Source of the DNA: Mucilaginibacter tundrae
Lineage (GTDB): Bacteria; Bacteroidota; Bacteroidia; Sphingobacteriales; Sphingobacteriaceae
Direction of reading: 5' to 3'
DNA length: 64,000 nucleotides
Assembly: GCF_013408825.1 (NCBI RefSeq)
Contig: NZ_JACCBZ010000003.1
Location: 248,001 to 312,000 of the forward strand
Shown: positions 945-13,776 of the stretch, in pieces
Layout: every line of letters starts with the position of its first letter
Position numbering within the stretch: the stretch's first letter is position 1
Made by a program: the position numbers and the translations under genes
Notes under the pieces: generated by a model
The model's database searches: none
Told to the model about the DNA's origin: nothing
What the model saw: the letters and a program-made list of their open reading frames with translations, nothing else

Positions 945-966
945 ATTACTACATCGTTTGAGTAAA
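945..966 (+). promoter_or_regulatory. Candidate LacI-type operator upstream of kdgK
   Basis: Imperfect palindrome centred on the CG at 955-956, with outer arms TTACT (946-950) and AGTAA (961-965). The 16 bases at 955-970 are identical to 6240-6255 upstream of uxaC. The centre lies about 50 bp upstream of the kdgK -7 box, the same spacing as at the other two sites. The LacI-family protein encoded at 5173-6216 is the obvious candidate ligand (inference). Confidence 0.6.
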
Positions 967-982
967 TAATAACACTACAAAG

Positions 983-1013
983 TTTGAAAACGCAGCTTTT
1001 CACCATATTTTTG
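983..1013 (+). promoter_or_regulatory. Promoter of the kdgK-eda-exuT-kduI operon
   Basis: TTTG at 983-986, a spacer of exactly 19 bp, then TATTTTTG at 1006-1013. Both elements match the primary sigma consensus of Bacteroidota (TTTG / TAnnTTTG). Transcription would start near 1020, leaving a leader of about 50-85 nt depending on the kdgK start used. Confidence 0.65.
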
Positions 1014-1072
1014 AAATTCACTTCAAGATGATGAACACGCTCTTTACAAAGTAGCGTTATTTTGGTCTGAAG

Positions 1073-2116
1073 TTGCCAATATATAAACAACTAATAAAAA
1101 AAGATTTGGGTAAGGTACTATGCTTTGGCGAATTATTGTTTAGGATCAGTCTTGATGCCGAAGGTAGTTGGCTTAAAAAAAACAACGTGCCATTTTATAT
1201 GGGTGGCGCAGAGTTGAATGTTGCTACAGCATTGGCACTGTGGGATGTACCTGTGGAATATTTTACAGCTCTGCCGGATAATTACATGTCTGCACAGATC
1301 GGCTCGCATTTAAAAGACAAGAACATTGGTTCCGACAAGATCTATTATCATGGTGACCGTATTGGTTTATACATTTTAAGTAAAGGCGCCGATTTAAAGA
1401 ATGATTCCTTAATATATGACCGTGCCTACTCTGCCTTTGCGGAACTAAGAACCGGCATGATCGATTGGGATAGGGTGCTTGATGGGGTTAGCTGGTTTCA
1501 TTTCAGCGCGATTTGCCCTGCTATTAATCAAAATGTAGCTGATGTTTGTAAAGAGGCCTTAATCGCTGCATCTGCAAAAAATATTACTATATCCATTGAT
1601 TTAAACTATCGCTCCAAATTATGGAAGTATGGTAAGAGCCCTGAACAGATTATCCCTGAATTGGTAAGCTATTGCGATCTGGTTATGGGTAATATATGGG
1701 CTGCAGAAACAATGCTGGGTATACCGGTTGAAGATGGCCTGCATAACATTGCACAAAGGGATAATTATTTACAGGCAGCTTTAAAAACTTCAAAATATAT
1801 CACCCAAAATAATCCTAAATGCAAAACGGTTGCGAATACCTTTAGGTTTGATACGAATGGTGGCATTACCTATTACACATCGTTATATACGAATGGCGAC
1901 TACTACAATACAACTGATTATGCTGCGGCTAAAATAGTAAACAAAGTTGGCAGCGGGGATTGCTTTATGGCAGGCCTTATTTATGGTTTTTATAACAAAA
2001 GATCGCCGGCTGAGGTGCTGGAATTTGCCACTGCGGCCGCTTTCGATAAATTGTTTTTAGAGGGCGATGCCACGAGCAGAACCAGTGAAGAAATTAAAAA
2101 TACAATTGCGCAATGA
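1073..2116 (+). CDS. kdgK: 2-keto-3-deoxygluconate kinase, PfkB family
   Basis: Cytoplasmic sugar kinase that would phosphorylate KDG to 2-keto-3-deoxy-6-phosphogluconate (KDPG), the step before Eda. It is 347 residues, normal for the family. Visible are the N-terminal strand KVLCFGELL, the substrate-loop motif GGAELN at residues 44-49, and the PfkB signature VGSGDCFMAG with catalytic Asp296. No ATG precedes the conserved N-terminus: the start must be TTG 1073 or TTG 1106, and the second gives a more family-like MGKVLCFGE. The gene overlaps eda by 4 bp (ATGA), so translation is probably coupled. The KDG assignment rests on the eda/kduI neighbourhood as much as on sequence; another PfkB sugar kinase activity is possible but unlikely. 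Confidence 0.88.
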   Translation: MPIYKQLIKKDLGKVLCFGELLFRISLDAEGSWLKKNNVPFYMGGAELNVATALALWDVPVEYFTALPDNYMSAQIGSHLKDKNIGSDKIYYHGDRIGLYILSKGADLKNDSLIYDRAYSAFAELRTGMIDWDRVLDGVSWFHFSAICPAINQNVADVCKEALIAASAKNITISIDLNYRSKLWKYGKSPEQIIPELVSYCDLVMGNIWAAETMLGIPVEDGLHNIAQRDNYLQAALKTSKYITQNNPKCKTVANTFRFDTNGGITYYTSLYTNGDYYNTTDYAAAKIVNKVGSGDCFMAGLIYGFYNKRSPAEVLEFATAAAFDKLFLEGDATSRTSEEIKNTIAQ

Positions 2117-2772
2117 GTACTAATCAAGATATAGTTAAAAGTATTATAACCCAGGGGATGCTCCCGCTGTTTTTTCATGCAGATGCGGAAGTTAGTTTGC
2201 AGGTTACCCGCTCGCTATATAAAGCAGGTGTAAGGGTAATTGAATACACCAACCGCGGGCCTGCCGCGCTGGAAAACTTTAAACTGTTAAAAAAAGCGCG
2301 GCAAAAGGAAATGCCTGAGTTGGCACTTGGCATCGGCACCATAAAAACGGAAGCTGAGGCTATTGACTTTATTGATGCCGGTGCGGATTTTATTGTAGCG
2401 CCTATAGTTAACCCTACAGTGGCGAAAGTAGCGCATGACAATGGCTTATTGTGGTGCCCCGGCTGCATGACCCCTACAGAGATATTTTTGGCACAACAAC
2501 ATGGCGCCGCGTTAATAAAACTATTCCCTGCTAACATTTTAGGACATTCTTTTTTAAGCTCGATTAAAGAACTATTCCCAGGTCAATTATTTATGCCGAC
2601 CGGAGGAGTAGAATTAAATACAGAAAATATTAGTCAATGGTTTAAGGCTGGCGTTTGCGCAGTTGGTTTGGGCAGTAAACTGATAACCAAAAACGTTTTA
2701 GAACAGGGCCTATATGAACAACTTTTCACCGATACACAAAAAGCATTACACCTTGTGAAAATATCGAGGTAA
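2113..2772 (+). CDS. eda: KDPG aldolase (2-dehydro-3-deoxyphosphogluconate aldolase)
   Basis: Class I aldolase that splits KDPG into pyruvate and glyceraldehyde-3-phosphate, the last step of both uronate routes encoded here. The 219-residue length fits the small TIM-barrel Eda family. Glu44 in IEYTNRG and Lys136 in ALIKLFPA match the catalytic Glu and the Schiff-base Lys of the family. No signal peptide, so cytoplasmic. The start codon overlaps the kdgK stop, and exuT follows 14 bp after the stop. No anomalies seen. Confidence 0.92.
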   Translation: MSTNQDIVKSIITQGMLPLFFHADAEVSLQVTRSLYKAGVRVIEYTNRGPAALENFKLLKKARQKEMPELALGIGTIKTEAEAIDFIDAGADFIVAPIVNPTVAKVAHDNGLLWCPGCMTPTEIFLAQQHGAALIKLFPANILGHSFLSSIKELFPGQLFMPTGGVELNTENISQWFKAGVCAVGLGSKLITKNVLEQGLYEQLFTDTQKALHLVKISR

Positions 2773-2786
2773 TTTATTTATAGACC

Positions 2787-4133
2787 ATGCTAAACGAAAC
2801 AAAGATCAGGAACTACAGATGGGTGATAGCTGCGCTCCTGCTTTTTTCTACGACCATTAACTACATGGACAGGCAGGTGTTAAGTTATGTGAAAGATTTC
2901 TTTTGCTTGCCTATTGCTAAAGGTGGTTTCGGATGGACAGATAACCAGTACTCATATGTGACAGCTTGCTTCACGGCATTTTATGCAGGGATAACCGTTG
3001 TAGCAGGGTTGGTTGTAGACAAAATCGGCACGAAATTGGGATTAGCGCTGTCACTCATCATCTGGTCGGTATTTGGTATAGCAAATGCTTTTGCTGGTAG
3101 TTCGGTGGTTACGCATACTATCATCAGGAGTTTATTCGGTATTGGCGAAGCTGGTAACTTTCCGGCATCAATAAAAACAGTGGCAGAGTGGTTTCCGAAA
3201 AAGGAACGTGCGCTGGCAACCGGTATATTTAACAGTGGTGCTAATATTGGTGCTATGGTCGCAGCGATTTTTGTGCCCTGGTGTCTGATCCATTGGGGCG
3301 AAGCTGAAGGCTGGAAAATGGCTTATATTATAACCGGGGCGGTAGGATTTTTATGGCTTATATTTTGGTTCGCTTTATACAATCCGCCGTCCAAATGCAA
3401 GTATATTACCAAAGAGGAATTTGAACTTATTCACGAGGATGAAGTAGCTGTACACGCAGCTCCATCGGAGGATGTTTCGCTGCATGAGAATATTTCATGG
3501 GGCAAATTGTTTAGATATCCGCAAACCTGGGCATTCTTTTGGGGAAAATTCTTAACAGATGGTATATGGTGGTTCTTGTTATTCTGGCTGCCCGATTACT
3601 TAAAGAAACAGTTCGGTATGGACGTTCACCACATAATGTGGCCAACATTCATCGTTTATTTTATTTCGATATTTGGCAGCACATTTGGTGGCAACCTACC
3701 GCGCATGATGATAAACCGTGGCACACCAGTATACAAAGCGCGTATGAGGGCAATGTTTCTTATCGCCCTATTTCCTTTATTTTTGTTGCTCACTCAATAT
3801 TTTGGCGACAAAGAAATATTTGGTTCTTATGCGTCAACTTTAGCAATTGCCGTAATTTGTATCGGAGCGGCTGCGCATCAAGCCTGGTCAGCAAATTTAT
3901 TCACAACCGTATCCGATATGTTCCCTAAAAAAGATATTGGCTCAGTAATTGGCATTGGCGGCATGGCTGGTGGTATAGGTGGTGTGGTTATTCAAAGGCT
4001 ATCTGGTATATTAAATACCTCCTATCCTAAAGATGCTTATATGATCATGTTCAGCATATGCGCTTTCTCTTATATACTGGCATGGACAATTATTAGAGTA
4101 TTGACGTTAAAGCCATCCAAAATAGCCCTTTAA
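2787..4133 (+). CDS. exuT: Hexuronate transporter, MFS (anion:cation symporter family)
   Basis: Inner-membrane major facilitator of 448 residues, about 12 hydrophobic segments, with a central hydrophilic loop near residues 205-235. The NYMDRQVLSY sequence at the end of helix 1 and GIGEAGNFPASIKTVAEWFP are typical of the ExuT/GudP-like ACS family. The expected role is proton-coupled import of galacturonate and glucuronate from the periplasm, which fits its place between eda and kduI. The symbol is assigned by family and context. Tagaturonate or an unsaturated monouronate could also be substrates. Confidence 0.85.
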   Translation: MLNETKIRNYRWVIAALLLFSTTINYMDRQVLSYVKDFFCLPIAKGGFGWTDNQYSYVTACFTAFYAGITVVAGLVVDKIGTKLGLALSLIIWSVFGIANAFAGSSVVTHTIIRSLFGIGEAGNFPASIKTVAEWFPKKERALATGIFNSGANIGAMVAAIFVPWCLIHWGEAEGWKMAYIITGAVGFLWLIFWFALYNPPSKCKYITKEEFELIHEDEVAVHAAPSEDVSLHENISWGKLFRYPQTWAFFWGKFLTDGIWWFLLFWLPDYLKKQFGMDVHHIMWPTFIVYFISIFGSTFGGNLPRMMINRGTPVYKARMRAMFLIALFPLFLLLTQYFGDKEIFGSYASTLAIAVICIGAAAHQAWSANLFTTVSDMFPKKDIGSVIGIGGMAGGIGGVVIQRLSGILNTSYPKDAYMIMFSICAFSYILAWTIIRVLTLKPSKIAL

Positions 4134-4169
4134 AAGTGCTAAAATAATTATCAAGCTAAATAAATACCC

Positions 4170-5000
4170 GTGAGAGTAATACACAGCGTCCATCCGGAAG
4201 ATTTTAAAACGTATCAAACAGGTTTAATACGTTCGCGTTTTTTGATCGATAAGCAGGTACAAGCCGATCAGTTAAATTGCACTTATACACATTACGATCG
4301 GATGATCGTAGGATTTGCGAACCCGGTAAATTCAAAACTGAAATTACCGGCTTACCCAAATTTGCGTGCTGAATATTTCCTGGAACGTCGCGAGATCGGC
4401 ATTATCAATGTTGCGGGAGATGGTATTATTACAGTTGATGGAGCAACTTATGAACTTAATAAACTCGATTGTCTGTATATTGGCAAAGGGAATAAATCAG
4501 TAACTTTCGCAAGTAAAAACCCTCAAGCGCCGGCTGTATTTTATATGCTCTCTGCTCCCGCCCACGCGGTTTATCCGACAACGCTGTTAACTAATGAGAA
4601 TGCAGTAAAAGTCACTCTGGGGTCAGCTTCGACAGCAAATCATCGCACTATAAACAAATACATACATTTGGAAGGAATACAAAGCTGCCAGTTAGTGATG
4701 GGCTTAACTATTTTGCATGATGGCAGCGTGTGGAACACCATGCCGCCGCATGTGCATGACCGCCGTATGGAAGCTTATTTTTATTTTGACGTTCCGCAAG
4801 GCCAAAAAATATTCCACTATATGGGCGAAGGCGACGAAACAAGGCATATTACCATGGATAATTACGATGCGGTAGTTTCTCCGCCATGGAGCATCCACTC
4901 AGGTAGCGGAACAGCAAGCTACAGCTTTATTTGGGGTATGGCCGGTGAGAATTTGGATTACACCGATATGGATGCTATCGCGATAACAGACATCAAGTAA
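4170..5000 (+). CDS. kduI: 5-dehydro-4-deoxy-D-glucuronate isomerase
   Basis: Cytoplasmic cupin isomerase that converts 5-keto-4-deoxyuronate, formed spontaneously from unsaturated galacturonate, into 2,5-diketo-3-deoxygluconate. It is 276 residues, close to the 278 of E. coli KduI. The zinc ligands are all visible: His194 and His196 in PPHVHDRRMEAY, Glu201, and His243 in WSIHSG. Start is GTG 4170; no upstream ATG is in frame. It is the last gene of the kdgK operon. The next enzyme of the route, KduD, is not found in this window. Confidence 0.93.
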   Translation: MRVIHSVHPEDFKTYQTGLIRSRFLIDKQVQADQLNCTYTHYDRMIVGFANPVNSKLKLPAYPNLRAEYFLERREIGIINVAGDGIITVDGATYELNKLDCLYIGKGNKSVTFASKNPQAPAVFYMLSAPAHAVYPTTLLTNENAVKVTLGSASTANHRTINKYIHLEGIQSCQLVMGLTILHDGSVWNTMPPHVHDRRMEAYFYFDVPQGQKIFHYMGEGDETRHITMDNYDAVVSPPWSIHSGSGTASYSFIWGMAGENLDYTDMDAIAITDIK

Positions 5001-5172
5001 AACAAGGATATATCGCAGTGATTTGATGTCCTTCAGATCATCCATGTTTAGCTACGTAACTCCGGTTTTACAATACGGATTAGCTTTATTGGCATTTATT
5101 TTCTTATGTTTACTTTAACGGGTTTTACCAATGGCCCGTAATCCTGTTATAATCGATTTTTAATATAGTATA

Positions 5173-6216
5173 ATGAATTTTGAGGCTGTTACCATTAAAG
5201 ATATCGCGAAGGAATTGGGTATATCCGCTTCTGCTGTTTCAAAAGCACTGAAAGACAGCCATGAGATTAGTGAAAAAACAAAAAAGCTGGTTTTAGAGTG
5301 CGCCAAAAAACACAACTATCAACCCAACCCAATGGCACAAAGCCTAAAACGGGGCAATAGTAAATCTTTGGGAATTGTTATTTCAACTATTGATAATCAG
5401 TTTTTCTCACAGGTTATCAGTGGTATCGAGTCTGTGGCGTACAGCAAAGGTTATAATGTCATCATCACACAAACACATGAATCTTATGATTTGGAGGTTT
5501 CCAACGTACAGCACCTTACTGTTAGGGCTATTGATGGGCTATTGATCTCCCTCTCTACTGAAACAAAAAATACTGATCATATCAGAAGACTACATGATAA
5601 AGGCCTACCTATTGTTTTTTTTGACCGTGTAACCGAAGATATTGAAACCCATAAAGTTATCGCCGATAATTTTGGCGGGGCTTATGAAGCCACCAAGAGT
5701 TTAATCGACTTAGGGTACCGTAAAATAGCGCATATTACCAATTCGGCGCATGTTTCTATTACTATTGCCCGCTTAAATGGTTATATCCGCGCATTAGAGG
5801 AAAGTAATATGCCTGTTGATGATAAGTATATTAAATATTGTGTACATGGTGGAAGAGACATTGCAGAGGTTGAAAAAGTATTAAATGAATTGCTTAATTC
5901 AGGAGATCGCCCGGATGCTGTTTTCGCTGCATCTGACAGGATAACAACAACAACACTAGGGCTTTTACATGATCTGGGTTTTAAAATACCGGATGATATC
6001 GCGCTGTTAGGCTTTTCGAACACGCATTTGGCTAAGGTACTCAACCCATCGTTAAGTACTGTTTGCCAGCCGGGATTTGAAATGGGTAAAATAGCCACAG
6101 AGATGATTATTAAGCTGATTGAAAGCAAACGCCCGGTTACTGAGTTTGAAACAGTAGTATTACCTACAGAAGTAATTATCCGCAACTCATCTCAACCGGC
6201 ATCAATCGTCAAATAA
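5173..6216 (+). CDS. LacI-family transcriptional regulator
   Basis: DNA-binding regulator of 347 residues. An N-terminal LacI helix-turn-helix (about residues 7-55: VTIKDIAKELGISASAVSKALK, hinge region up to SLKRGNSKSLGIV) is followed by a periplasmic-binding-protein-like sensor domain (about 60-340). It sits between the kdgK operon and uxaC, on the same strand. Three palindromic CG-centred sites at the heads of the surrounding uronate operons are its likely targets. Because they lie upstream of the -33 boxes, it may act as an activator or anti-activator rather than as a simple steric repressor. The effector is probably a uronate or KDG-type intermediate (inference). The 172-bp leader of this gene contains no convincing copy of the operator, so autoregulation is not evident. 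Confidence 0.88.
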   Translation: MNFEAVTIKDIAKELGISASAVSKALKDSHEISEKTKKLVLECAKKHNYQPNPMAQSLKRGNSKSLGIVISTIDNQFFSQVISGIESVAYSKGYNVIITQTHESYDLEVSNVQHLTVRAIDGLLISLSTETKNTDHIRRLHDKGLPIVFFDRVTEDIETHKVIADNFGGAYEATKSLIDLGYRKIAHITNSAHVSITIARLNGYIRALEESNMPVDDKYIKYCVHGGRDIAEVEKVLNELLNSGDRPDAVFAASDRITTTTLGLLHDLGFKIPDDIALLGFSNTHLAKVLNPSLSTVCQPGFEMGKIATEMIIKLIESKRPVTEFETVVLPTEVIIRNSSQPASIVK

Positions 6217-6229
6217 TCAATTTATTAAA

Positions 6230-6251
6230 TTTACTGCAACGTTTGAGTAAA
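6230..6251 (+). promoter_or_regulatory. Candidate LacI-type operator upstream of uxaC
   Basis: The best of the three palindromes: left arm TTTACTGCAA (6230-6239), central CG (6240-6241), right arm TTTGAGTAAA (6242-6251). Eight of ten arm positions are symmetric. The centre is about 51 bp upstream of the uxaC -7 box. Confidence 0.65.
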
Positions 6252-6268
6252 TAATTATTGGCGATGTG

Positions 6269-6299
6269 TTGGCAGATACTTATATCAACTCTAATTTTG
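6269..6299 (+). promoter_or_regulatory. Promoter of uxaC
   Basis: TTGG at 6269-6272, 19 bp spacer, then TAATTTTG at 6292-6299, an exact TAnnTTTG. The predicted start of transcription is near 6306. That favours ATG 6331 over GTG 6319 as the uxaC start codon. Confidence 0.6.
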
Positions 6300-6330
6300 A
6301 CCTTGGCGATAAACTAATGTGCCCATATTT

Positions 6331-7734
6331 ATGAAACCTTTTTTAGATAAAAACTTTCTTTTACAAAGCAAAACCGCGGAACGTTTATACCATGAATATG
6401 CTGCGCATTTACCTATTATAGATTATCATTGCCATCTTGATCCTGTACAGATCGCGAATAATATAAATTTTGCTAATCTAACAGAGATCTGGCTTAAGGG
6501 TGATCATTATAAATGGCGCGCCATGCGGGCGAATGGCGTAAATGAGCAATATATTACCGGCAGCAAAACTGATCTTGAAAAGTTTGAGAAATGGGCCGAA
6601 ACTGTTCCATATACCCTGCGCAATCCGTTATACCATTGGACGCACCTAGAATTGCAACGCTACTTTGATGTGCATGATGTAGTGTCACCCAAAACGGCTA
6701 AAGCAATATATGAAGAGTGTACCGCTAAACTGCAAACAGCAGAATACAGCGTACAAAGCATCATCACAAAAATGAATGTGGATGTTATTTGTACCACTGA
6801 CGACCCTATCGACAATTTGGAATATCATCAGAAAATAAAACAAAGTGATTGGAAGGTTAAGGTTTATCCGGCGTTCAGGCCTGATAAAGCGATGAATGCA
6901 GATGATCCGAAGTCATTAAACGAATACATTAACAAACTTGAGGCGATTAACGCCAAACCTATTCAAAACTATAATGATTATCTGCTGGCATTAAAAAAGC
7001 GCCACGATTATTTTGCAGAAAACGGTTGTAGTGTATCCGATCATGGTTTAGAGCAAATATATGCCGAAGACTATAGCAATGATGAAATTGCTATCATATT
7101 CGCCAAAATACGTAAAGGCGAATCATTACAAGCCGTTGAATCGCTTAAATTCAAATCAGCAATGCTTTATGAATTTGCCATTTGGGATCATGAAAAAAAC
7201 TGGGTACAACAATATCACCTAGGTGCGTTACGCAATAATAATGCCCGTGCTTATACTGAAATAGGTCCTGACACTGGCTATGATTCAATCGGTGATTTTA
7301 CACAAGCACAGGCCTTGTCTCGCTTTTTAAATAAGCTGGATACAACCAATCAATTAGCTAAAACCATCCTTTATAATCTTAATCCGGCAGATAACGAACT
7401 GTTCGCGACAATGGCTGGTAATTATAATGATGGCACCGTTGCTGGTAAAATTCAGTTTGGCGCAGCCTGGTGGTTTTTAGATCAAAAGGATGGAATGACA
7501 AAGCAAATAAATGCTTTATCAAGTATGGGCTTATTGAGCAAACTGGTGGGTATGCTTACCGATTCGCGCAGCTTCTTGTCGTATCCAAGGCATGAGTATT
7601 TCCGTCGCTTACTTTGCAACTTACTGGCTAAAGATATTGAAAATGGCGAACTACCTGCAGATATAGAATGGACTGGCAAAATAGTACAGGACATTTGCTA
7701 TTACAACGCTAAAAACTACTTCACATTCAAATAA
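6331..7734 (+). CDS. uxaC: Glucuronate/galacturonate isomerase
   Basis: Cytoplasmic metal-dependent isomerase of the amidohydrolase superfamily. It interconverts D-galacturonate with D-tagaturonate (and D-glucuronate with D-fructuronate). It is about 467 residues from ATG 6331, normal for UxaC. The metal-binding HxH is seen in DYHCHLDP near the N-terminus. Further family blocks are ARAYTEIGPDTGYDSIGD and the C-terminal GMLTDSRSFLSYPRHEYFRR. A GTG 12 bp upstream is possible. The gene has its own promoter and operator and is followed by two hairpins, so it may be monocistronic. UxaB and UxaA, which act next, are in the following operon. Confidence 0.95.
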   Translation: MKPFLDKNFLLQSKTAERLYHEYAAHLPIIDYHCHLDPVQIANNINFANLTEIWLKGDHYKWRAMRANGVNEQYITGSKTDLEKFEKWAETVPYTLRNPLYHWTHLELQRYFDVHDVVSPKTAKAIYEECTAKLQTAEYSVQSIITKMNVDVICTTDDPIDNLEYHQKIKQSDWKVKVYPAFRPDKAMNADDPKSLNEYINKLEAINAKPIQNYNDYLLALKKRHDYFAENGCSVSDHGLEQIYAEDYSNDEIAIIFAKIRKGESLQAVESLKFKSAMLYEFAIWDHEKNWVQQYHLGALRNNNARAYTEIGPDTGYDSIGDFTQAQALSRFLNKLDTTNQLAKTILYNLNPADNELFATMAGNYNDGTVAGKIQFGAAWWFLDQKDGMTKQINALSSMGLLSKLVGMLTDSRSFLSYPRHEYFRRLLCNLLAKDIENGELPADIEWTGKIVQDICYYNAKNYFTFK

Positions 7735-7758
7735 ATTATGCTGGATAACCAGCTTAAT
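7735..7758 (+). terminator. Hairpin directly after uxaC
   Basis: GCTGG (7740-7744), loop ATAA, CCAGC (7749-7753). The flanking AATTA and TAATT extend the stem beyond a single T-T mismatch. It begins immediately after the uxaC stop. There is no long T-run, so it is either a weak intrinsic terminator or an mRNA 3' stabiliser. Confidence 0.4.
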
Positions 7759-7769
7759 TCCCGCATTTT

Positions 7770-7818
7770 AATGGGCAACTAATTTACGCAAACGTTGAAG
7801 TTGTTTTAGTTGCCCATT
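7770..7818 (+). repeat. Perfect 13-bp inverted repeat flanking an operator-like loop
   Basis: AATGGGCAACTAA at 7770-7782 is perfectly repeated in inverse orientation, TTAGTTGCCCATT, at 7806-7818. The 23-base loop (7783-7805) holds the third CG-centred operator-like sequence. In uxaC mRNA it would form a strong stem-loop but lacks a T-tract. In DNA it frames the site upstream of the GH28 promoter. Confidence 0.7.
7783..7804 (+). promoter_or_regulatory. Candidate LacI-type operator upstream of the GH28 operon
   Basis: Left arm TTTACGCAAA (7783-7792), CG at 7793-7794, right side TTGAAG. CAAACGTTG (7789-7797) is the reverse complement of CAACGTTTG (6237-6245). Symmetry is weaker than at uxaC, but the distance from the centre to the -7 box (about 51 bp to 7845) is the same. 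Confidence 0.5.
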
Positions 7819-7821
7819 TAC

Positions 7822-7852
7822 TTCCTTATTGATTAATAGTGTCTTAATTTTG
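7822..7852 (+). promoter_or_regulatory. Candidate promoter of the GH28-CE8-uxaB-uxaA-GH105 operon
   Basis: TAATTTTG at 7845-7852 is an exact TAnnTTTG box. The -33 position (7822-7825, TTCC) is a poor match, which would suit an activated promoter. The leader would be about 80 nt. Confidence 0.45.
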
Positions 7853-7939: not shown

Positions 7940-9595
7940 ATGCTTATTATTAAAAGATTGCTTATTGCTACCTGGTTACTTATTAGCTGGTCATTTATAG
8001 CATCTGCACAAACAACACTATATTCATGGCAGCACTTGCCTGCTGTTGCTCACACCTCATTCAAAAAAGACACATTTAACATTGTAAAATATGGGGCTAA
8101 AGGCGATGGTATAACCCTTAATACTATAAACATTAACAAAGCTATTACCATTTGTAGTAACAAAGGCGGCGGTGTGGTACTAATACCACAAGGTTTATGG
8201 CTTACCGGGCCAATTGTAATGAAATCAAATGTGAACTTGCATGTTAGTCGTGCCGCATTATTACAATTTACAGATGATAAAACACAATACCCATTGGTGG
8301 AAGGTAATTACGAAGGCCATGCCGCTGTTCGCAACCAATCACCTATTTCAGGTACTGATTTAACGAACATTGCCGTAACCGGCGAGGGTATTATTGATGG
8401 ACACGGTGAAGTATGGAGAGCTATAGGTAAAGATAGGCTAACTGAAAATGAATGGAACGCATTGGTAGCCACCGGCGGCATACTAAGCCAAAATGGCAAA
8501 GCATGGTATCCATCGCAAAGTTACTTAAACGGGTTAAGTACGCCAGATGCAGGTATAATAAAACCGGGTAAAAAGCTAGATGATTATCAATCGATGAAAG
8601 ATTTTTTCAGGCCTAATATGCTGGTATTAACCAACTGTAAAAAGGTTTTATTGCAGGATGTAACTTTCCAAAACTCCCCGGCATGGTGCCTGCATACGTT
8701 AATTTGCGAAGACCTCACCCTTAAAGGTGTTCATGTACGCAACCCATGGAATGCGCAGAATGGTGACGGTATTGATGTAGAATCCTGTAAAAATGTATTA
8801 ATTGAGGGCAGCACTTTTGAAACAGGCGATGACGGGATCTGTATTAAATCCGGCAGAGATGAAGAGGGACGAAAAAGAGGGAAACCTACTGAAAATGTAA
8901 TAGTGCGGAACAATGTGGTTTACCGCGCGCATGGCGGCTTTGTCATAGGCAGTGAAATGTCGGGCGGGGCACGCAATATTTTTGTGTCCGATTGTACATT
9001 TATTGGTACCGATGTTGGCCTTAGGTTTAAAACTAATCGTGGCCGTGGCGGTATTGTAGAGAATATCTACATTAAAAATATCAGCATGCGCAATATTGTT
9101 ACCGATGCTATACTGTTTGATATGTACTATATGGGCAAATCGCCGGGCGAGGCTGAATCAGGTGGCACAGAAACCGTTCCTCCTGTTACAGAAGCTACTC
9201 CGCAATTCAGAAATTTTTATGTAGACAATGTGGTATGCATAGGCGCTGAAAAAGGGCTACAGGTAAGAGGACTGCCTGAAATGAATATTAAAAATATTTA
9301 TCTGAGTAACTTGATCTTAAAAACTAATAAAGGCGCTGATATTATTGAAGGCAGTAATATCAACCTAAAAAATGTTTATTTCGATTGTAAGGACACTTCT
9401 CCTCTGGTTAATATAGCGAACAGCAATAACATCAATTTTGATCATGTTACTTACTCAAATGCACAACTGTTATTTTCGGTAAGCGGTAAAAAAACAGCTC
9501 AGATAAAAGTATCAAATACAGATACAAGCAAAGCAGTTGAGGCAACCTCGTTCAAATCAGGAGCGGATAAAAACTCACTCGTAAAAGCTAATTAG
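7940..9595 (+). CDS. GH28 polygalacturonase, secreted
   Basis: Right-handed beta-helix hydrolase for alpha-1,4-galacturonic linkages in pectin. A signal peptide (to ASAQ, residue 24) sends it to the periplasm or beyond. The N-terminal strand VKYGAKGDGITLNT is followed by the four GH28 signatures: NGDGID (Asn274, Asp276), GDDGICIKSG (Asp297/Asp298), HGG in RAHGGFVIGSEMSGG (His331), and RFK (Arg362, Lys364). It is 551 residues, longer than simple endo-enzymes, as is common in exo-acting or oligogalacturonide-active members, but the mode is not readable. It heads an operon with CE8, uxaB, uxaA and GH105, so demethylation, release and catabolism of galacturonate are co-expressed. Confidence 0.93.
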   Translation: MLIIKRLLIATWLLISWSFIASAQTTLYSWQHLPAVAHTSFKKDTFNIVKYGAKGDGITLNTININKAITICSNKGGGVVLIPQGLWLTGPIVMKSNVNLHVSRAALLQFTDDKTQYPLVEGNYEGHAAVRNQSPISGTDLTNIAVTGEGIIDGHGEVWRAIGKDRLTENEWNALVATGGILSQNGKAWYPSQSYLNGLSTPDAGIIKPGKKLDDYQSMKDFFRPNMLVLTNCKKVLLQDVTFQNSPAWCLHTLICEDLTLKGVHVRNPWNAQNGDGIDVESCKNVLIEGSTFETGDDGICIKSGRDEEGRKRGKPTENVIVRNNVVYRAHGGFVIGSEMSGGARNIFVSDCTFIGTDVGLRFKTNRGRGGIVENIYIKNISMRNIVTDAILFDMYYMGKSPGEAESGGTETVPPVTEATPQFRNFYVDNVVCIGAEKGLQVRGLPEMNIKNIYLSNLILKTNKGADIIEGSNINLKNVYFDCKDTSPLVNIANSNNINFDHVTYSNAQLLFSVSGKKTAQIKVSNTDTSKAVEATSFKSGADKNSLVKAN

Positions 9596-12123: not shown

Positions 12124-13776
12124 ATGAAACAAAGAATAACAAAGGTTCATCCTAAAGATAATGTAATGGTAGCGCTCACCGATTTGCAAGCCGGTGAAGA
12201 ACTAACCTATAAGGGCGAAACCTATAAACCTATTGAGTTTATCCCGGGCAAGCATAAATTTGCCATTAATGATCTGCCTACCGGAACTCAAATAATTATG
12301 TATGGGGTATTGGTTGGTGTTACACAAAATGACATCCCCGCTGGTGGATTATTAACAACAGCCAACATTAAACACGCGGCAAGCGGTTTTATAACCGGGA
12401 ATAACCATGCTCATTGGGATAAACCCGATGCAACCAAATGGGAATTAGCCACATTTAATGGATATCACCGCGAAAATGGTGATGTGGGTACCGCCAATTA
12501 TTGGTTGGTAATACCTATGGTATTTTGCGAGAACCGTAATATAGAGGTTTTGCAGGAGGCTTTGGTAAAACCATTAGGCTATGGCCGCAAAAAAACTTAT
12601 GAGATAAAAGCCCAGCAACTTATAGACAAAATTGCTTCGGGTAGCGGTGTGGATGAGGTTTTATTTACTGAAATCGGCAGCGAAGACGCCAATGCACATC
12701 AGCATAAATTATTTCCTAATGTAGATGGTATTAAGTTTTTAACTCATACAGGAGGCTGCGGCGGTACCAGGCAGGATTCTACAACTTTATGTGGCTTGTT
12801 GGCCGGGTATATCACTCACTCAAATGTAGCGGGAGCGACCATATTGAGTTTAGGCTGTCAAAATGCAGAAGTTAAAACACTACAGGATGAAATTGCCAAG
12901 CGCGATCCTAACTTTAAAAAACCGCTTTACATCCTCGACCAGCAAAAAGTTGGATTGGAAACAGATTTGATTGAATTAGCCATACGCCAAACTTTAGCAG
13001 GGCTGATACAAGCTAACGAAAACACCCGCAAACCAGCATCTTTAAATAAACTGGTTATCGGTTTGGAATGTGGTGGTTCAGACGGATTCTCTGGCATTTC
13101 AGCTAATCCTGCGATAGGTTATACTTCAGATTTACTAGTATCGCTTGGCGGTTCGGTTATATTGGCGGAGTTCCCTGAGTTGTGTGGCGTTGAGCAAAAT
13201 TTGATTGACCGTTGTGTTGATAAGGATAAGGCAGAACGTTTTTCATCATTAGTGCGTAGTTATAGTCAGCGGGCAGATGAGGCTGGATCAGGCTTTTACA
13301 TGAATCCTTCACCGGGCAATATAAAAGATGGATTAATCACCGATGCAATTAAATCAGCAGGCGCGGCAAAAAAAGGCGGCACTTCACCAGTTACAGATGT
13401 ATTGGATTATCCTGAAAAAGTAACCAAACCGGGCCTTAACTTGTTGTGTACGCCGGGTAATGATGTCGAATCAACAACTGCCGAAGTTGGTTCCGGGGCA
13501 AATGTGGTTTTATTTACTACAGGTTTAGGCACCCCTACCGGCAATCCTATTACACCCGTTATAAAAATTGCGACAAACACCAGTCTTTATAAACGCATGA
13601 ATGATATTATTGATATTAATACAGGAACCATTGTTGAAGGTGATGAAACCATTGAACAAGCAGGCGAACGTATTTTAGATTATATTATTAAAGTAGCCAG
13701 CGGCGACATAGAAGTTAGCGCGGTGAGACACGGTCAAAACGACTTTATCCCCTGGAAAAGAGGCGTTTCGTTATAA
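12124..13776 (+). CDS. uxaA: Altronate dehydratase
   Basis: Cytoplasmic dehydratase turning D-altronate into KDG, which joins the KdgK-Eda route. It is 550 residues with the normal two-part build: an N-terminal SAF domain (about residues 10-95) and the large UxaA domain. Conserved blocks are THTGGCGGTRQDS, ILSLGCQNAE and GLECGGSDGFSG, whose Cys and His residues probably bind the iron centre. It follows uxaB by 9 bp. No frame defects. Confidence 0.95.
   Translation: MKQRITKVHPKDNVMVALTDLQAGEELTYKGETYKPIEFIPGKHKFAINDLPTGTQIIMYGVLVGVTQNDIPAGGLLTTANIKHAASGFITGNNHAHWDKPDATKWELATFNGYHRENGDVGTANYWLVIPMVFCENRNIEVLQEALVKPLGYGRKKTYEIKAQQLIDKIASGSGVDEVLFTEIGSEDANAHQHKLFPNVDGIKFLTHTGGCGGTRQDSTTLCGLLAGYITHSNVAGATILSLGCQNAEVKTLQDEIAKRDPNFKKPLYILDQQKVGLETDLIELAIRQTLAGLIQANENTRKPASLNKLVIGLECGGSDGFSGISANPAIGYTSDLLVSLGGSVILAEFPELCGVEQNLIDRCVDKDKAERFSSLVRSYSQRADEAGSGFYMNPSPGNIKDGLITDAIKSAGAAKKGGTSPVTDVLDYPEKVTKPGLNLLCTPGNDVESTTAEVGSGANVVLFTTGLGTPTGNPITPVIKIATNTSLYKRMNDIIDINTGTIVEGDETIEQAGERILDYIIKVASGDIEVSAVRHGQNDFIPWKRGVSL

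Follow-up and report, generated by a model that had tools for sequence, protein, structure and literature searches.

A fixed-spacing composite promoter shared by uronate-catabolism operons of Mucilaginibacter tundrae, and its probable use by a LacI-family activator

We find that three operons of a uronate-catabolism cluster in Mucilaginibacter tundrae begin with the same composite promoter, in which a CG-centred palindromic operator is followed by a short A/T tract and, at a near-invariant distance, by a -7 box, and that this arrangement co-occurs across the genus with orthologues of the LacI-family protein encoded within the cluster. The window analysed is a stretch of 64,000 nucleotides (C3:248001-312000 of a 4.83 Mb genome), and positions below are those of the window unless a contig is given. 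Our best explanation, to which we assign a probability of roughly two in three, is that the LacI-family regulator binds near -63.5, contacts RNA polymerase and most likely acts as an activator. Under this explanation the LacI protein (5173-6216), together with its orthologues and close paralogues, would bind an even, CG-centred palindrome approximating TTTACKNAAACGTTTNMGTAAA, the dyad of which is fixed 51-53 bp before the -7 box. The bound regulator would contact RNA polymerase held at the promoter, likely via the C-terminal domain of the alpha subunit (alpha-CTD) seated on the adjoining A/T tract, and this contact would activate the kdgK, uxaC and GH28 operons. Outside the window, fbp and yhcH would be among its targets (yhcH at a paralogue's locus as well), and the ligand is probably an intermediate of the uronate pathway that favours the activating state. 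The elements concerned are as follows, the tracts being read directly from the sequence.

945-966, + strand: operator S1, ATTACTACATCGTTTGAGTAAA, of the kdgK operon; central CG at 955, matrix score 19.6
967-970, + strand: A/T tract TAAT of S1, at CG+12 to CG+15
1006-1013, + strand: -7 box TATTTTTG, 51 bp from the CG of S1
5173-6216, + strand: LacI-family regulator, predicted binder of the sites; Pfam LacI (PF00356) and Peripla_BP_3 (PF13377), both above gathering scores
6230-6251, + strand: operator S2, TTTACTGCAACGTTTGAGTAAA, of uxaC; central CG at 6240, matrix score 23.5
6252-6255, + strand: A/T tract TAAT of S2
6292-6299, + strand: -7 box TAATTTTG, 52 bp from the CG of S2
7783-7804, + strand: operator S3, TTTACGCAAACGTTGAAGTTGT, of the GH28 operon; central CG at 7793, matrix score 20.6
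7805-7808, + strand: A/T tract TTTA of S3
7845-7852, + strand: -7 box TAATTTTG, 52 bp from the CG of S3

The initial annotation had described three matched CG-centred sites, each before a TAnnTTTG box at a nearly constant distance, and their positions and distances (51, 52 and 52 bp) are borne out, as is the identity of 16 bases between 955-970 and 6240-6255. Each box is the sole TAnnnTTG between 13 and 159 bp past its CG. The + strand of the window contains 40 copies of TAnnTTTG, and the naive chance of all three boxes falling within one 2-bp slot is about 2e-9, for a slot chosen after the fact; tests on other genomes weigh more than this figure. The three operators are palindromic at 7/11 (S1), 9/11 (S2) and 5/11 (S3) pairs, so that the GH28 site is a weak palindrome. 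A TTG of the -33 type lies 22 bp before the box at kdgK and 23 bp before it at uxaC, leaving a gap of 17 bp between operator and TTG at both promoters but not at GH28, where the TTG lies only 16 bp before the box and the promoter consequently has no -33 element at the usual place.

The matrix used to score these sites was trained on 26 of 32 listed sites from other genomes (24 of them distinct), after four weaker or downstream sites, one site from a 97% relative and one duplicate had been dropped. S2, S3 and S1 received the three best scores in the window, the next reaching 9.1, and the best score in 20 mononucleotide shuffles was 15.4. We also examined 350 bp upstream of 42 orthologous genes (kdgK 10, uxaC 10, GH28 8, GH105 1, kduI 13), the best site in each region being chosen by the matrix alone, blind to boxes, which were listed afterwards. 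Five of these regions come from loci fetched for a composite match (L065 and L092) and the rest from the window or from loci of LacI genes; some loci in this test and in the LacI-locus test below belong to genomes, or hold sites, also used in training. A box follows the best site at 50-52 bp in 40 of the 42 regions: at 51-52 in all ten kdgK regions (this genome included), at 52 in all ten uxaC regions examined and at 51-52 in all eight GH28 regions examined. Scores among the positive regions go down to 8.1 and 9.9, and the best site has a central CG in all 40, the matrix itself favouring CG. Conservation upstream of orthologous operons, on which the initial annotation had made its case depend, is therefore found, as is that of the CG-to-box distance. 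The two failing regions are those of a GH105 gene, from a locus in which no GH28 was found, and of kduI in this genome; in its relatives kduI has the site in 12 of 12 regions examined. Here the gap between the transporter gene and kduI (4134-4169) measures 36 bp, against 143 bp in genome G217, and the operator and box of near relatives have both been lost. Together with the offsets in other genera described below, the matrix ranking and the orthologous regions lead us to reject a chance origin of the sites.

The anatomy of the promoter was taken from a stack of 101 unique composites from 57 loci. The scan that gathered them imposed the proximal half-operator and the box, so that the conservation of these two parts is in part selection, but it did not impose the A/T tract. 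In order, the stack shows the operator, a strict A/T stretch at CG+12 to CG+15, a weak TT 23-22 bp before the box, and the box. The operator is an even palindrome with a central CG (required by the scan), as in the LacI/GalR family, and lies upstream of -33 at a fixed helical phase, as is characteristic of a class I-type LacI activator. A four-base A/T tract occupies the promoter side of the operator in 98 of 101 composites, compared with 32/101 on the mirrored side, 20/84 at half-operators without a box, and an expectation of about 18%. Of the 42 operators that combine a strong distal half with a single promoter, only 14 have an all-A/T mirrored side, which disfavours the tract as a part of the operator, whereas in six operators with boxes on both sides the mirrored side is A/T in 6/6 (near side 5/6). 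All six precede kduI orthologues and hence amount to one evolutionary case; for one of them the yhcH gene on the divergent side was confirmed. From the mirrored-side and bidirectional counts, the tract goes with the promoter and not with the operator; a directional A/T tract, new here, is what would be expected of an alpha-CTD docking site. No composite has an operator scoring at least 12 over the core promoter, from -33 to the start (0/101). A second operator lies 20-75 bp upstream of the first in 20 of 101, and in 19 of these 20 it has a divergent box of its own at 50-53.

Co-occurrence connects the composite to the LacI protein. Orthologues were defined by at least 62% identity, a cut set at a gap in the list after viewing it (the next lower being 59%). 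Over 120 genomes of the genus, 51 have both the orthologue and the narrow composite, 12 the orthologue only, 10 the composite only and 47 neither (Fisher 2e-12). The same association holds at an unlinked gene, fbp (fructose-1,6-bisphosphatase): 98 genomes had a match to this gene, and in the 30 of them with the best-scoring loci the site accompanies the orthologue in 9 of 12 genomes but occurs in 0 of the 18 that lack it (Fisher 1.5e-5), with the box at 52 every time. In M. tundrae this fbp gene (C3:330270-331316; L170, L172) lies outside the window, about 76 kb from lacI, and its composite is at C3:331409 with an offset of 52; a second fbp copy is at C3:43805. A further composite precedes a yhcH-type gene at C3:241952. 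The earlier proposal of a uronate regulon around the LacI gene at 5173 is accordingly strongly supported, and the regulon reaches well beyond the window. With up to 3 mismatches, the composite occurs in this genome at four places at offset 52 (control 1) and, at offset 51, at two places that include S2 once more (control 2); given these control counts, a place on contig C13 with 3 mismatches is not claimed. A LacI paralogue of 68% identity (C5:262997-264016; L031) adjoins an operon of yhcH, GH88, uxuA and an alginate-lyase-family gene that carries a site of this type at offset 53, which suggests cross-talk or a subdivided control of uronate use.

The spacing recurs at LacI loci and in other genera. 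The LacI-locus scan covered 40 of 57 loci, in which 52 sites reached a score of 15; a box follows at 50-53 in 48 of them. In a wide-gap scan of the 120 genus genomes (half-operator, then a box at 37-67 bp), the 150 matches listed from a longer set include 40 at offset 52, 11 at 53, 5 at 51 and 0-8 at every other offset; this pattern is mostly noise, a reversed control being of similar size by eye, and only its offset peak is used. The narrow composite gives 102 matches in the same genomes vs 13 for the reversed-pattern control (by eye). Offsets of 50-53 account for 26 of 34 matches in the organism's own genus, and for 59 of 94 in other genera of the family, where 12 are expected; the histogram probabilities assume independent matches, an assumption that orthologues violate, and some operators, having two boxes, count twice. 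In a sample of 395 genomes from the phylum, after four matches of this genome and of G062 had been removed, seven of the 25 remaining matches lie at 50-53. Six of these are at 52 and belong to six genomes of one other family (f2); GH28 follows the site directly in three of them, and a SusC-type gene in one. In other genera of the family an additional 15 matches, near-identical in sequence, cluster at offset 49 in genomes of genus g14 (e.g. L108), and the single fetched member of this cluster precedes a metallophosphatase gene.

The sigma-A box TAnnTTTG of a flavobacterium spans -12 to -5 (PMC9723704, cited here, like the papers below, from excerpts of the text), and if this position holds in Mucilaginibacter, the dyad would lie at about -63.5, with the tract from -52 to -49 and transcription starts near 1018, 6304 and 7857. 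Since the spacing is near-invariant and the A/T tract directional, we infer a contact with RNA polymerase, probably through the alpha-CTD. The geometry resembles that of class I promoters of CRP (-61.5), at which the alpha-CTD adjoins an upstream activator on its promoter side, although CRP belongs to an unrelated protein family. LacI-family proteins are mostly regarded as repressors, and catabolic regulators of the family are usually such, which counts in favour of the main rival explanation: the same protein, at the same sites and through the same polymerase contact, might trap RNA polymerase, as GalR does at gal P1, until uronate intermediates release it. Fixed spacing and an alpha-CTD site are also compatible with such a repressor. 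Activation is favoured because the -33 signal is weak, as is frequent in activator-dependent promoters, and because the 17 bp from operator to TTG at kdgK and uxaC (not GH28) come near the 14-16 bp reported for CcpA and, at two genes, for AraQ/MalR1; we therefore consider a repressor of this kind unlikely, while counting it the strongest of the alternatives. The published precedents point in both directions. In Bifidobacterium, AraQ/MalR1 sites that are believed to be activating precede -35 by 15-16 bp at two genes and by 33-35 bp at three, and a CcpA site at 14 bp is cited in the same paper (PMC6882875), whereas Escherichia coli GalR, bound at gal OE (-60.5), represses P1 by inhibiting it through polymerase contact and activates P2 (PMC4693257). 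In view of these precedents a LacI-type activator, which the initial annotation called notable, would not be without parallel. Its activator-type reading of the upstream sites gains from the geometry, the directional tract and the lack of any operator over the core promoter; as GalR works both ways, we call activation itself no more than probable.

A different protein, such as another LacI paralogue, might bind the sites, the adjacent LacI gene being incidental. Six LacI-family matches at E<=1e-40 occur in the genome, the protein at 5173 among them, the 68% paralogue has the same site type at its locus, the pattern occurs in genomes without the orthologue, and in genome G185 a kduI operon carries the site although its fetched stretch yielded no lacI. 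Against this stand two data sets in which the sites strongly co-occur with the LacI orthologue, the repeated adjacency of gene and site, and the similarity of the helix-turn-helix region among relatives with the site at their loci, and we regard another binder as very improbable. Least probable of all is an ordinary steric or looping repressor with an incidentally upstream site, for although the 20 composites with a second operator would permit paired binding at some loci, nearly all of these operators have their own divergent box, none of the 101 composites has an operator over the core promoter, and a steric block leaves both the spacing constancy of about 1 bp and the directional A/T tract unexplained.

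Several observations weigh against the activator proposed here. GalR bound on the polymerase face at -60.5 is a repressor of gal P1, so that position does not fix the sign of regulation, and a -33 signal, apparently weak, is present in the stack. With either matrix, none of the 15 top-scoring sites in the window falls in the gap before lacI (5001-5172); lacI thus seems to have no operator of its own but may be read from the upstream operon, and could in that way be autoregulated. The strict pattern is missing from 12 of the 63 genomes with the LacI orthologue and present in 10 of the 57 without, and the fbp site is absent from 3 of 12 LacI-positive genomes. At LacI loci, a box at 50-53 is missing from four of the 52 sites with scores of 15 or more, nine of 30 loci (L113-L142) have no site reaching 15, and some loci of orthologues, including L080, L081, L082, L085 and L088, show no composite in the scan. 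Finally, the reversed control in the phylum sample (about 51 matches by eye) exceeds the pattern (29), so that there is no general excess across the phylum and the f2 cluster alone is conspicuous.

Uronate regulons under LacI-family control are known; the fixed operator-to-box geometry with its A/T tract appears, against the literature covered, to be new. The closest described systems are KdgR, UxaR and UxuR of Bacteroides, LacI-family regulators of glucuronate/galacturonate catabolism with palindromic sites, whose regulons are predictions of comparative genomics (Ravcheev 2013, PMC3878776; 2014, PMC4052901). They come from other families of the phylum and are likened to the present system by description; the excerpted accounts state neither a fixed distance to a -7 box nor activation. 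Likewise, no fixed operator-to-box module is described in the titles and abstract openings of the literature covered, a scope outside which subscription papers and RegPrecise fall. AraQ/MalR1 and CcpA share with the present system a LacI-type regulator 14-16 bp upstream of -35 at some promoters (17 bp to the -33 TTG here), but the AraQ/MalR1 distance varies, whereas ours is near-invariant over many operons (PMC6882875). GalR too is a LacI-family dimer upstream of a promoter and acts through the polymerase alpha subunit, albeit at one operon with overlapping promoters (PMC4693257). E. coli Cra (FruR) is a LacI-family activator of gluconeogenesis genes, a likeness to the gluconeogenic fbp copy in the predicted regulon; it differs in being a regulator of central metabolism, for which the excerpted account describes no fixed composite promoter (PMC4052901).

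The module, conserved across genera with near-invariant spacing and a directional tract, points to direct polymerase contact, and its mode of action could be tested with few promoter constructs. The module also offers a predictive rule for regulons in Bacteroidota, and ties the use of pectin sugars to a gluconeogenic enzyme. A broader and more tentative proposal, to which we give somewhat less than even odds, is that in this class of Bacteroidota a whole set of LacI-family regulators are direct activators that follow one rule (a dyad about 63 bp before the start, an A/T docking tract beside it and one site per promoter), common to uronate genes and to other targets (3-keto-disaccharide hydrolase, SusC and fbp among them) under different paralogues. 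If this were true, activator operons could be read from genome sequence. Among 20 fetched loci from other genera and family f2, the site stands directly before GH28 in six, before a SusC-type gene in two, and before uxaB, kdgA and a short-chain dehydrogenase near uxaC in one each. Seven have other functions (3-keto-disaccharide hydrolase in three, a xylose-isomerase-like barrel, a Gfo/Idh/MocA oxidoreductase, the metallophosphatase at offset 49, and anthranilate synthase), and two are without annotation. At L103, L111 and L112, in other genera, composites at 50-52 precede genes of the 3-keto-disaccharide-hydrolase family, and no close LacI relative was found in the fetched stretch.

The LacI protein itself has an N-terminal LacI helix-turn-helix with hinge and a periplasmic-binding-protein-like domain, which places it in the LacI/GalR family, and its closest titled relative is from Mucilaginibacter sp. 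L196 (97%). The remaining genes of the cluster are listed here.

1073-2116, + strand: kdgK-like PfkB sugar kinase; PfkB fold, with 2-keto-3-deoxygluconate (KDG) kinase models matching below cut-offs and function taken from context
2113-2772, + strand: kdgA/eda, 2-keto-3-deoxy-6-phosphogluconate (KDPG) aldolase; PF01081, NCBIfam matches below cut-off
2787-4133, + strand: major facilitator superfamily (MFS) transporter of hexuronate type; family match, substrate from context
4170-5000, + strand: kduI, 5-dehydro-4-deoxyglucuronate isomerase; NF002091 above cut-off, without its own operator here
6319-7734 (alternative ATG 6331), + strand: uxaC, uronate isomerase; PF02614, NF002794 above cut-off
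7940-9595, + strand: GH28 polygalacturonase-type hydrolase; PF00295
9603-10619, + strand: pectinesterase; PF01095
10606-12114, + strand: uxaB, tagaturonate reductase; NF002969 above cut-off
12124-13776, + strand: uxaA, altronate dehydratase-type; PF20629, PF04295
13812-15716, + strand: GH88/105 family hydrolase; PF07470

Judged by these matches, the cluster genes together span galacturonate catabolism and much of unsaturated-uronate catabolism, and the predicted targets include the uronate catabolic genes kdgK, kdgA, kduI, uxaC, uxaB and uxaA.

Three other search patterns were discarded. The exact asymmetric pattern TTTACNNNNCGNNTTTGA gave zero matches and one in its reversed control, and the palindrome TTTACTCAAACGTTTGAGTAAA, with up to 3 mismatches, was too strict, yielding only S2 and one other genomic place. 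The consensus TCTACGCAAACGTTTGCGTAGA, again with up to 3 mismatches, was found in 28 of 120 genomes and was too strict because one half of the operator is often degenerate. A palindrome three mismatches from consensus, TTTAATCAAACGATTGATTAAA, lies in this genome at C6:224866-224887 (L052). A related palindrome, TTTACGCAACCGTTTGCGTAAA, has a TAnnnTTG box at offset 38, not 52, and was seen at G208:C9:33234, G236:C2:451289, G241:C245:30385 and G250:C1:2123860; perhaps it serves another LacI paralogue with a fixed spacing of its own.

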